A DNA stretch of 64,000 nt from Verrucomicrobiales bacterium (GTDB lineage: Bacteria; Verrucomicrobiota; Verrucomicrobiia; Verrucomicrobiales; DEV007), in the NCBI GenBank assembly GCA_029213195.1, contig JARGNI010000010.1, forward strand, positions 1 to 64,000, given 5' to 3'. Of the stretch, positions 45,546 to 49,406 are shown piece by piece. The notes below the pieces were generated by a model. It made no database searches, was not told the origin of the DNA, and saw only the letters and a list, made by a program, of their open reading frames with translations. Numbering within the stretch: the first letter of the stretch is position 1; each line of letters starts with the position of its first letter. Made by a program: the position numbers and the translations under genes.

Positions 45546-47042
45546 TTACGCAGCTTCGACCCGGCCGGTCGCCAGGTGCATGATAGACTCTTCACTGAGT
45601 TCGTTCCGGAGCAGTTCCCCAGAAAGGGCTCCCTCGTGCATGACGAGCCCCCGATCGGCCATCCCGATGACCTCCTCCAATTCGCTGGAAACGAACAGGA
45701 TCGCTACTCCCTCTCGCGCGAGCTCCTCCATCAGGGCGTAAATTTCCTGTTTCGCCCCGATATCGATGCCACGGGTCGGCTCATCCAGGAGGAGCACCTT
45801 CGGTTTCATCGCCAGCCATTTGCCCAGCACCACTTTCTGCTGATTTCCTCCTGACAAAAACCGAACGATCTGGCGAGACGATGGCGTCTTGATCTTCATT
45901 TTTTCCGTCATCTCGGCAGAAATCTCATCTTCTGCCCTGAAGTTGAGAAAACCGGCCTTCGCGTCACGTCCCACCGAAGCGAGACTGACATTGTCTCCTA
46001 CCGCCATATCGAGGACGAGGCCTTTTCCTTTCCTGTCCTCGGGGACGAGGGCGATCCCCGACTCGATCGCCGTCTCTGGAGACGTAACCAAGATCCCTTT
46101 TCCTTCTACCTCGATGGAACCGGAAAGAGCTGGAGTGACTCCGAACAAGGTTTCCAGCAATTCGGAACGACCAGCTCCAACCAGCCCTGCCATTCCCACG
46201 ATCTCGCCCGCCTTCACCTCGAAAGAGATTTCGTGTCCGGGATGGGCAGGGCTTCGCAAATTCTTCACCGAAAGCACGGACTCCCCCGCAGCGTGAGGCT
46301 CATGGGCGTAGAATCGGGACAGGTCCCGCCCCACCATGAGACTGACCATGGCGTCGTGGGTGATCTTCTCTCCCGACAACTCCCCGGCATTCTCCCCGTC
46401 CCGCAGGACGACGACACGATCGGCGAGCTCAATCACTTCGCCCAACCGGTGAGAAATATAGACAATGCTGACCCCGGACTCTCGAAGCCCTTTGACGACT
46501 TCAAAAAGTCGATCGGTCTCCTTCTGCGAAAGACTCGAGGTCGGCTCATCCATGATCAGGATCTTCGCGTCGGTCGAAAGAGCCTTGGCAATCTCCACGA
46601 GCTGCTGCTTGCCGATTGGCAGCTCGGAAACGAGCGTCTCCGGAGACACTTCCAGGCCTACGCGTTCCAGATAGCCAGCGGCTTTGCGAGCGATCTCCTC
46701 CTCATCGATGAGGCCCCTTCGAAGCGGTTCCTGACCGAGAAAGATATTTGCACCCACCGACAGGTTCGTCGCCAGATTCAATTCCTGGTGAATCAGGGCG
46801 ATCCCCAGTTTCAACCCTTCTTCGACCGATCCAATTTCAACTTCCTTGCCTGCAACTCGGATGACGCCTTCGTCGGGTCCCTGGACACCTGCAAGGATCT
46901 TCATCAACGTGCTCTTGCCTGCACCATTTTCACCGAGGACGGCCACCACTTCACTCTCCCCGAGCGCCAAGTCGACCTCGTGGAGTGCTCGGACTCCGGG
47001 AAAACGTTTCCCGATCCCCGTGACTTCCAGAACATGATTCAT
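45546..47042 (-). CDS. sugar ABC transporter ATP-binding protein (RbsA/MglA type)
   Basis: 498 residues with two fused ATPase halves. The first has Walker [10 protein letters not shown] near 37, the signature-like [15 protein letters not shown], and Walker [13 protein letters not shown]. The second has the degenerate Walker [11 protein letters not shown] near 288, signature [16 protein letters not shown], and Walker [15 protein letters not shown]. This layout is specific to the CUT2 ribose/galactose/xylose importers. Neither the permease (RbsC) nor the periplasmic binding protein is adjacent on this strand within the window, so the substrate is unknown and the partners must be encoded elsewhere. 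Divergent from the nuclease gene. Confidence 0.93.
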
Positions 47043-47199
47043 GCACTCACGCTAGCGAACGCCCCAAATACTTCCACCCTTTTCCCTCCGAAATCGTGGA
47101 TGAACAGGAGCCAATGCCATACGTAACAGCGAAATTCTTTGCGTCTTCTTCCCAGGCATCCTCATCGAGCCTCTTGTGCCGGAAAATCACGACTGGAAC

Positions 47200-47213
47200 T
47201 GTTCAGCAGAACA
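47200..47213. promoter_or_regulatory. LexA (SOS) box, Verrucomicrobia type
   Basis: TGTTC-AGCA-GAACA is an exact match to TGTTC-N4-GAACA, the LexA motif I recall as described for Verrucomicrobia. It ends 15 bases before the GTG start of the repair nuclease gene. A further TGTTC half-site begins at 47219. TATGTT at 47217 and TGGAAC at 47194 are spaced as weak -10/-35 elements with the box between them, the expected place for a repressor. This predicts DNA-damage induction of the gene below. Confidence 0.75.
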
Positions 47214-47228
47214 TGCTATGTTCCTCGC

Positions 47229-49406
47229 GTGATTTCGCCTGCCCTGCCCCAGCTTTCCAGCCGGTACTACCTCGAACACTTCGAGGAAATGGTCCGTTTC
47301 GTGGAGGAGCATTACGCGCATGTCCTTGAGCCCCCCCACCAGGAGTTTCTCGAGAAGTTCGGAGAGCTCTCCCGCGACGCTCGTTGTCTCTATGTCCGAA
47401 TGGCGAATCGGAAGGGGCGTCTCTTCCGTCGCGATACGTTGCGCTACGACGAGATTGGCGAACCTGAAACAGCCGAACGAGTCCTCGGAGTAGCGAACTT
47501 CATTCGCCCCCCTTCGGAAGAGGATATCGTCCCACTCCTGCAGTGGCAGTCATGCACGATCCTCACGCAATGGATCCGGACTTCCTCCCTCATCCCGGAT
47601 CTCGAGCGATGGTCGGCCATTCGAAAAAAAGACCTCGTTCAACATGTCCGGGAAAACCTGACTTTCGAACAATTGACGGAGTATCTCGACCCGAACGAAT
47701 TCCTTGTTCAGGAAAAAAGCGAAGAGCTCGACTACCTTCTCTTTCTCTATTTTGGCCGTCCCGAGGACAACCTGACGGCTTTCGCGTTGCGGGATCTTGG
47801 AGTCATGGGGCGTTCGCGTTTTCGCACTCGCTTCGAAGCCCGATTCTCAAATCGGAAGGAATCCCGGACTTCCTATCGCTATGAGAAAATTCTGCGAGAG
47901 CTCGACAAGCCATCCCCCGAAATCCTTCACGCCCTTCTCGAAGAAGTCGACGATTGGCTCGAGGCTGGCGATCCGGAGTCTCGAATTCTTCGAGACCGTT
48001 GCCTTCATCGATTGGGACGGGGATTGGAACGCCGGGGCGAGGAGGCCGACGCTCTCGAAGTCTACCGAAGAAGCCGCCAGTTTCCCGCCACCGAGCGCGC
48101 AGCACGACTTCTCGTTTCCCTGGGACACAGGGGAGAGGCGGAAGACCTGCTTCGGGAGCTGATCGAGTCTCCCTCTTGTGATGAAGAACTCCTCTTCGCA
48201 GAAGATTTCCTCGCCCGGAAATTCGGGACCCGACGGATCGGCCGGCTCACCCACCTCCTGCGTTCCGCGGAAACGATCGTCCTCGATGAAACGATGCGCG
48301 GTCAACCGGAAGCCGGCGCAATTTCTCACTACGAACGAGAAGGCATCGCCGCCTTCCACGTCGAGAATGCGATCTGGCGACAGCTCTTCGGTCTTCTCTT
48401 CTGGGACCTCCTTTTTGGTGAAAACGCCGCCCTCCACAACGATTTCGATCGAAAACCGCGAGGACTGGATTCCGGAGAGTTTTTCCTCAAGAACCAGGAG
48501 GAAATCGAAGCTCGCCTGGCAGAGCTGGACGCGCCCGAGAAAGTGACTTCTCGCCTCGCTGCGACTTGGGACGAATGGGCAGACACCCCGAATGCGATCC
48601 TGTCCTGGTATCCGGAGCTCTTTCGTCTCGTGCAGGAATTGATCCAACGGGCACCGTCGCGAAGCCTGGCCCAGGTCATCGAGCCCATGACCCGACAATT
48701 TCGGACTTATCGGGCCGGATTCCCGGATCTCATGCTCATCGAGAACGGCGGAGTCCGCTTTGTCGAGATCAAGGCGGAAGGAGACCAGATCCAGCGTCAC
48801 CAACTCGCACAGATCGAGCGGCTCAATGAGGCTGGGCTCCCTGTTACGGTGGTGAAAGCCCACTGGGCCTGTGATCCCGACCAGGAGTATGTCGTCGTCG
48901 ATGTCGAAACGACCGGTGGCAATCCGCGCTGGAGCCGCGTGACCGAGATCGGAGCGGTCCGAGTCAAGGGAGACGAGATCCTCGAAGAATGGAGTTCATT
49001 GGTGAATCCCGGCATGAAGATTCCGAAACGCATCGTCGAACTCACGGGTATCACGGATGAGATGGTCGCGGAAGCCCCTGCCTTCGAGGAGATCGCCGAA
49101 GAATTTCTCGATTTCGTCGGTCACCGGGTCTTTGTCGGTCACCGAGTCAAATTCGACCATGGGTTTCTGCGTGCCGAGTGCGAGCGAGCCGGATACGAAC
49201 TCCACTGCCCCACTCTTTGCACCGTCGTCTCGATGCGGCGCTATTTCCCCGGACTTCCTTCCTACGGTCTCGCAAAGCTTTCGGAGCACTTCGAGGTGCC
49301 TCTCGAGAATCATCATCGCGCCCTGGATGATGCGAGAGCTACGGCTCACCTCCTGATGATCCTGAATCAGAAGAGAGTCGAGAAGGCAGCCGCTGCGGTG
49401 CTGTAG
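47229..49406 (+). CDS. FAN1-like VRR-NUC nuclease fused to DnaQ-type 3'-5' exonuclease
   Basis: 725 residues from the GTG at 47229; upstream reading adds unrelated residues. The first 460 match bacterial FAN1: LYVRMANRKGRLFRRDTLRY near 55, a helical SAP/TPR region (EADALEVYRRSRQFPA), and YPELFRLVQELIQRAP. VRR-NUC follows at about 470-545, with the PD-(D/E)XK residues in GFPDLMLI and RFVEIKAEGDQIQRHQ. Near 553 a complete DEDDh exonuclease domain begins: DVETTGG (ExoI), VGHRVKFDHGFL (ExoII) and HHRALDDARAT (ExoIII). FAN1 incises structured DNA such as interstrand crosslinks and flaps; the exonuclease would resect or proofread the products. Bacterial FAN1 is normally about 550 residues without this addition. 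The upstream LexA box supports a DNA-damage role. Confidence 0.88.
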   Translation: MISPALPQLSSRYYLEHFEEMVRFVEEHYAHVLEPPHQEFLEKFGELSRDARCLYVRMANRKGRLFRRDTLRYDEIGEPETAERVLGVANFIRPPSEEDIVPLLQWQSCTILTQWIRTSSLIPDLERWSAIRKKDLVQHVRENLTFEQLTEYLDPNEFLVQEKSEELDYLLFLYFGRPEDNLTAFALRDLGVMGRSRFRTRFEARFSNRKESRTSYRYEKILRELDKPSPEILHALLEEVDDWLEAGDPESRILRDRCLHRLGRGLERRGEEADALEVYRRSRQFPATERAARLLVSLGHRGEAEDLLRELIESPSCDEELLFAEDFLARKFGTRRIGRLTHLLRSAETIVLDETMRGQPEAGAISHYEREGIAAFHVENAIWRQLFGLLFWDLLFGENAALHNDFDRKPRGLDSGEFFLKNQEEIEARLAELDAPEKVTSRLAATWDEWADTPNAILSWYPELFRLVQELIQRAPSRSLAQVIEPMTRQFRTYRAGFPDLMLIENGGVRFVEIKAEGDQIQRHQLAQIERLNEAGLPVTVVKAHWACDPDQEYVVVDVETTGGNPRWSRVTEIGAVRVKGDEILEEWSSLVNPGMKIPKRIVELTGITDEMVAEAPAFEEIAEEFLDFVGHRVFVGHRVKFDHGFLRAECERAGYELHCPTLCTVVSMRRYFPGLPSYGLAKLSEHFEVPLENHHRALDDARATAHLLMILNQKRVEKAAAAVL

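Follow-up and report, generated by a model that had tools for sequence, protein, structure and literature searches.

The window, a stretch of 64,000 nucleotides from a Verrucomicrobiales bacterium, carries on its forward strand a gene that joins a FAN1-like nuclease to a DEDDh exonuclease, with a predicted LexA operator just ahead of its start codon (Table 1). FAN1_HTH, VRR_NUC and RNase_T all score over the Pfam curated cut-offs in the encoded protein. The VRR-NUC active site is composed of D500, E513 and K515, and the catalytic residues of the DEDDh domain are D558, E560, D643, H696 and D701. The sequence-only reading of this DNA had described a FAN1-like N-terminus followed by a VRR-NUC site and a complete DEDDh exonuclease in one protein. 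Its motifs, reading frame and upstream box are all present where it placed them; the two nuclease assignments agree with the Pfam matches, and the FAN1 character of the N-terminus is borne out by FAN1_HTH and by an alignment of the whole body to the FAN1 of Pseudomonas aeruginosa (PaFAN1).

Table 1. Features of the fusion gene and of the region directly upstream (window positions; residues are those of the encoded protein)
Feature	Positions	Strand	Description
Possible promoter	47193..47222	+	CTGGAA, 18 nt spacer containing the box, TATGTT (-10 like, TGC before it); read by eye
LexA operator TGTTC-AGCA-GAACA (predicted)	47200..47213	.	Exact palindrome; 15 bp upstream of the GTG start
FAN1-DEDDh fusion gene	47229..49406	+	GTG start, 725 aa plus stop; single open frame
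FAN1 HTH domain (PF21315, FAN1_HTH)	47265..47504	+	Residues 13-92; Pfam E 4.9e-24, 84.5 bits against a cut-off of 27
TPR-like stretch	47997..48116	+	Residues 257-296; TPR_14 23.2 bits, slightly below the cut-off of 23.5
VRR-NUC PD-(D/E)XK nuclease (VRR_NUC)	48537..48866	+	Residues 437-546; E 1e-15, 58.3 bits against 23.8
Junction W546 to D558	48864..48902	+	13 residues; aligned relatives without insertion or deletion
DEDDh 3'-5' exonuclease domain (RNase_T)	48891..49352	+	Residues 555-708; E 5.3e-38, 131.6 bits against 24

With phmmer, residues 3-549 of the fusion align with residues 13-558 of PaFAN1 (4r89) at E 4e-29, and the exonuclease begins where PaFAN1 (559 aa) stops. A profile built from 21 family members improves the PaFAN1 match to E 7.1e-71, and human FAN1 is matched too. 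Regarding the exonuclease half, the best NCBIfam models are DEDD exonucleases of the PRK07883 type, all far under their whole-protein cut-offs, and DinG- and PolC-type DEDDh models are likewise among the top-scoring ones. The half scores 82.9 bits with TIGR01406, the equivalog of DNA polymerase III epsilon (DnaQ proper), whose cut-off is 222.7. Enzymes of the DEDDh fold work in the 3'-5' direction, and the PRK07883 group presumably contains DEDDh-GIY-YIG proteins. Over the exonuclease domain the fusion shares 46% identity with two RNase_T plus GIY-YIG proteins, one from a Bacteroidia MAG (L002) and one from a viral contig (L169). An AlphaFold model made from two rows (the window protein and L001, the latter from a Verrucomicrobiales MAG) has a mean pLDDT of 41.5, too poor to use.

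The open reading frame as called mechanically begins ahead of the box, at TTG 47139. This start was rejected because the frame opens only past the box in seven of the 15 exact-box loci. GTG 47229, 15 nt past the box, is almost certainly the real start of the gene: the window's genus has 15 exact-box loci, its own among them, and in all of these the first start codon in frame lies 15-20 nt past the box. We infer that a leaderless mRNA would start near this GTG. A search of 47040-47300 for the sigma-70 consensus came up empty; CTGGAA stands one base ahead of the box in 13 of the 15 aligned loci, and GTGGAA in the remaining two.

On its other side the region adjoins a divergent sugar-ABC-transporter gene (45546-47042) with no evident functional link to the fusion. 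This neighbour, 70-76% identical, is found at 15 of 27 other Verrucomicrobiota loci, L131/L001 among them (partially at L126). That the box serves the transporter gene instead is less likely, because its distance to the fusion start is constant at 15-20 nt and because L131, L117 and L134 have the neighbour without a box.

Conservation and distribution of the fused form

We aligned 58 fused proteins (own included) from Verrucomicrobiota, Alphaproteobacteria and Gammaproteobacteria. The three VRR-NUC residues D500, E513 and K515 and the DEDDh residues D558, D643 and H696 are present in every one, E560 in 57, and D701 in at least 97% of them, being invariant in the 21 rows of alignment A1. Equivalents of the three VRR-NUC residues also occur in six of six unfused FAN1 proteins. 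All three domains were recovered by Pfam in each of the 21 members scanned, which were picked from the 58 for spread. The one protein that departs at E560, L146 of genome G1169, reads DIGTSG in the DEDDh motif, with glycine for the catalytic glutamate, and its near-identical companion L147 retains the glutamate; L146 is perhaps a natural exonuclease-dead copy.

From H545 to V557 the junction spans 13 residues in every one of the 58 fused proteins, free of insertions and deletions; its residues Q552 and Y554 hardly vary. An assembly join or a frameshift between the domains, which the sequence-only reading had named as one of three outcomes that would undo its proposal, none of which occurred, is excluded because the 58 proteins share this junction of constant length. 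The alignment of 58 includes L167, whose match runs from residue 157 only and which was omitted from the box count and from the FAN1 tree. Among the rows, L142 and L145 both come from a single genome as separate copies, and three pairs are near copies (L043/L044, L146/L147 and L130/L132); four loci below the FAN1_HTH cut-off (L066, L067, L068, of which L168 is a wider region, and L191) were dropped.

In a quick tree of the FAN1 part, the 57 fused rows form one clade against six unfused ones (SH-aLRT 99), and the alpha and gamma members nest among Verrucomicrobiota. A tree of the exonuclease gives the same broad clades with weak support and long-branch warnings, and the outside row L002 falls inside the family. 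We read the two trees as pointing to one fusion event, then inheritance with some transfer between phyla.

Genome samples were searched for the extent of the family. FAN1_HTH scores over its cut-off in 27 of 219 genomes of the window's order, own included, with all frames between 719 and 833 aa, and all 27 genes found are fused (exonuclease motif checked); the window's genus supplies 23 of these carriers (own included), against eight listed non-carriers. By the same measure there are six carriers among the 198 genomes of G1122's family (seven loci, frames of 728-756 aa) and 17 among the 109 of G536's order (15 frames of 713-755 aa, two others ended by contig ends). Counting complete frames, the fused protein is the only FAN1 form in these three samples. 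A gamma sample of 293 genomes held 12 genes over the FAN1_HTH cut-off, ten of them unfused (frames of 539-577 aa) and two fused. Genome samples of two classes gave 10 of 369 genomes at E 1e-40 for the Gammaproteobacteria (the class of L011's genome, Methylovulum), where four matches extend into the exonuclease and six are of FAN1 length only, and 3 of 385 at E 1e-30 for the Alphaproteobacteria (that of L006's genome, Aurantimonas), with four loci, all fused. Bacterial FAN1 had been expected to end after VRR-NUC; the short form is indeed commoner in the gamma sample, while in the window's order every FAN1 found is fused. Likewise, the FAN1-DnaQ fusion suggested from the window alone is present as described, though as a member of a conserved family and not as something unique. 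Genome G1122 has two full-length fusion genes (L142 and L145), each with an Alpha-type LexA operator.

Predicted LexA operators at the fusion genes and in the genome

The box ahead of the fusion gene has the form TGTTC-N4-GAACA, taken here as the LexA motif of Verrucomicrobia. It is the sole exact match in the window, where sites with up to one mismatch number two, no more than chance (mean 1.70).

Operators were counted in the 150 nt upstream of the relatives, using each clade's own LexA motif, and compared with shuffles and two control patterns. The exact motif is found at 15 of 27 loci in Verrucomicrobiota (shuffle mean 0.01), while eight of 11 alpha loci have GAAC-N7-GAAC or its complement (0.07) and seven of 20 gamma loci have exact CTGT-N8-ACAG (0.04), rising to 16 of the 20 when a single base of a half-site is relaxed (0.12). 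Matches of the three exact motifs across clades are all zero, and the two control patterns likewise gave zero. For the operators of Alpha and E. coli type we followed PMC3091678 and PMC9578287, and the use of CTGT-N8-ACAG as core of the E. coli type was our choice. The gamma rows are not independent, since 17 of the 20 come from one order, and the 20 include L148 and L160, whose frames are broken off by contig ends after 496 and 476 aa; their fusion is unproven and they stand outside the alignment. L121, with 48 nt of upstream sequence, was left out of the 27.

Within the window's genus 22 loci, the window's own among them, have 80 nt or more of sequence upstream; the exact box occurs at 15 of these, and at 17 with at most one mismatch. 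The 15 exact boxes have eight different spacers; half-sites kept while the spacer varies are as expected for a binding site, here a putative one. At the five other Verrucomicrobiota loci, outside the genus, no box is exact and three have one mismatch. Seven of the 27 have no box even with one mismatch (L117, L134, L131, L137, L135, L127 and L140). No operator was found within 150 nt at three of the 11 alpha loci (L143, L144 and L165, the last having one at -199), nor a relaxed one at four of the 20 gamma loci, or three (L148, L150 and L151) if any one mismatch is allowed. A chance box at the fusion gene is ruled out by the clade-matched operators together with the 15-20 nt spacing in the genus.

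Predicted SOS control is not peculiar to the fused form, because two of 12 unfused gamma FAN1 genes (L052 and L182) have an exact CTGT-N8-ACAG; these 12 have at least 80 nt upstream, with 150-170 nt examined. In the unfused set, L051/L184 has under 80 nt upstream, and L186 and L187 repeat L053 and L050. Such control may be older than the fusion, or common to fused and unfused FAN1. Among the alpha loci, a gene for an SOS-response-associated peptidase of the SRAP type lies directly upstream of the fusion in Bradyrhizobium L036 (3167-3916) and in L145, and a partial match to such a peptidase (94 aa) lies upstream in L142; a neighbour of this kind would fit a repair role.

In the 5.9 Mb genome the exact motif occurs six times and its reversed control twice. 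As a count that excess is modest; more telling are the positions of the sites and the relatives. The genome has one LexA match (TIGR00498, 145 bits), whose gene bears the same motif 9 bp before its likely ATG and 12 bp before the model match. The sequence-only reading had proposed a scan for the motif beside lexA and recA: for lexA this is what we find, but within 1.5 kb of recA there is no box with fewer than two mismatches. An exact box also lies where a radical-SAM repair gene of UDG-linked type begins (C109:71299, L033; TIGR03916, 563 bits), and UDG-based repair has been reported under SOS control in Verrucomicrobia (PMC8565304). Two more, 49 bp apart, occur at an integron integrase (C58:73394-73456, L031 and L032; TIGR02249, 320 bits), one overlapping the start of the longest frame and the other just upstream, and integron recombination is likely to be SOS-controlled in this genome. 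Another exact box (C36:30231, L030), 112 bp ahead of the longest frame for a membrane protein with an HDIG domain, may be chance or a real target. The operators predicted in relatives are stronger evidence for SOS control than the sites of this genome. The claim of a LexA-type box immediately upstream of the fusion is thereby upheld in a wider form, the box being exact, shared with lexA and recurrent in relatives. On the sequence evidence FAN1-DEDDh is an old, patchily distributed, SOS-linked family and not a one-off.

Proposed function and comparison with known systems

The fusion is very probably an SOS-linked dual repair nuclease. A good case can also be made for the fuller reading, that the fusion belongs to a conserved family of double nucleases which repair DNA under LexA control, with the mechanism proposed here. 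DNA damage would relieve LexA through its cleavage, and the fusion enzyme would be made. Its FAN1 part would bind a blocked fork or a 5' flap and incise the strand within the duplex, a few nucleotides in, which is what FAN1 is known to do: such proteins, that of Pseudomonas included, cut 5' flaps at this place and then act as 5'-3' exonucleases (PMC4103454, PMC9635880). The fixed DEDDh domain would trim the adjacent 3' end in the opposite direction, and both activities together would leave, around the crosslink or blocked fork, an open gap to be filled or used in recombination. With FAN1 and DEDDh joined in a fixed frame, a blocked site could be worked on from either side by a single protein. 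This coupled role in gap opening or crosslink unhooking is put forward tentatively, at somewhat less than even chances. Equally tentative is its strongest form, a bidirectional crosslink-repair machine with a FAN1 cutter on the 5' side and a DEDDh trimmer on the 3' side in fixed geometry, which might serve an SOS-induced crosslink or fork-gap pathway rewired in each lineage to its own LexA dialect (the Verrucomicrobiales genus and relatives, Bradyrhizobium-like Alphaproteobacteria and some Gammaproteobacteria). The substrate of the DEDDh domain could also be RNA rather than DNA.

The alternative that survives best, though we consider it unlikely, gives the DEDDh domain the task of proofreading, or of cleaning 3' ends, in error-prone SOS synthesis or when forks restart, with FAN1 mainly targeting it to branched DNA and crosslinks not the chief substrate. 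SOS control suits damage tolerance as well as crosslink repair, and the models that score best with the exonuclease, of PRK07883, DinG and PolC type, speak for this role; however, the retention of the VRR-NUC residues in 58 of 58 proteins argues that the nuclease half is more than a targeting module. Much less probable still is an anti-phage or anti-plasmid nuclease in place of a repair enzyme. The patchy distribution (3 of 387 genomes in the sample of the window's phylum at E 1e-60, own included) would favour it, as would plasmid carriage. Full-length relatives occur in five of 72,556 plasmid records, two from Bradyrhizobium, both typed as conjugative, and three from Pseudoalteromonas; three of the five copies are annotated, each as an 'exonuclease domain-containing protein' and one with a reading frame shorter than the full one, and in two records the matched region is unannotated. 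The fusion is also hit by PADLOC candidate-defence models, but only within its DEDDh domain. No match covering 80% of the protein was found in 50,697 phage records, and pattern-based scans of viral contigs found no full-length fusion. LexA operators upstream of the genes also count against a defence role, and the 23 carriers against eight non-carriers in the window's genus, with the ABC-transporter neighbour at 15 of 27 other Verrucomicrobiota loci, indicate a stable chromosomal place. That the protein is an ordinary FAN1 with a decorative C-terminal domain that adds nothing has very little to commend it, for while FAN1 proteins by themselves possess 5'-3' exonuclease activity (PMC4103454) and L146 has lost a catalytic glutamate, D558, E560, D643 and H696 are kept jointly in 57 of 58 proteins and the junction never varies in length.

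FAN1 and DEDDh enzymes are themselves known, and the FAN1-DEDDh family is undescribed as far as our literature searches reach. In openly readable papers other than preprints, none was found that names VRR-NUC together with DnaQ, or VRR_NUC together with RNase_T. FAN1 with the SOS response and LexA gave a single match, in which FAN1 appears only in the reference list, and VRR-NUC with SOS and LexA gave two. FAN1, VRR-NUC, exonuclease domain and bacterial together gave one match, which concerns polinton-like viruses of a dinoflagellate.

Among described proteins, the VRR-NUC type VI effectors share with the fusion a VRR-NUC structure-specific nuclease, but they are secreted and have a PAAR-like domain, and a FAN1 body or DEDDh domain is absent from their description in the available text of PMC9635880. 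DinG with an N-terminal DEDDh exonuclease (8zef; PMC12345164) is similar in that a DEDDh domain is attached to a DNA repair enzyme; its partner is a helicase, and its exonuclease is N-terminal, unlike that of the fusion. Similar in its exonuclease half is the DEDDh-GIY-YIG protein of Bacteroidetes (COG0847 GIY-YIG exonuclease), reported under SOS motifs in PMC8565304; PRK07883-type models score best with the exonuclease of the fusion. There the partner is GIY-YIG instead of VRR-NUC and the exonuclease comes first, so that the order is reversed. The parallel suggests that a DEDDh domain with another nuclease under LexA is a recurring design. For the FAN1 half the counterpart is PaFAN1 (PDB 4r89 / 5y7g), which resembles the fusion in the end-to-end alignment and in the VRR-NUC catalytic residues, but its chain of 559 residues is matched up to residue 558, whereas the fusion continues directly into the DEDDh exonuclease. 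Human FAN1 is a nuclease of crosslink repair and repeat stability, and PaFAN1, the bacterial form whose structure has been solved, is of the short type. The fusion would be a second bacterial form of FAN1, to which an exonuclease of opposite polarity has been added and which appears tied to SOS in three groups by three different LexA operators. The family thus offers a tractable test of the bacterial role of FAN1, and of 3' trimming as part of unhooking.
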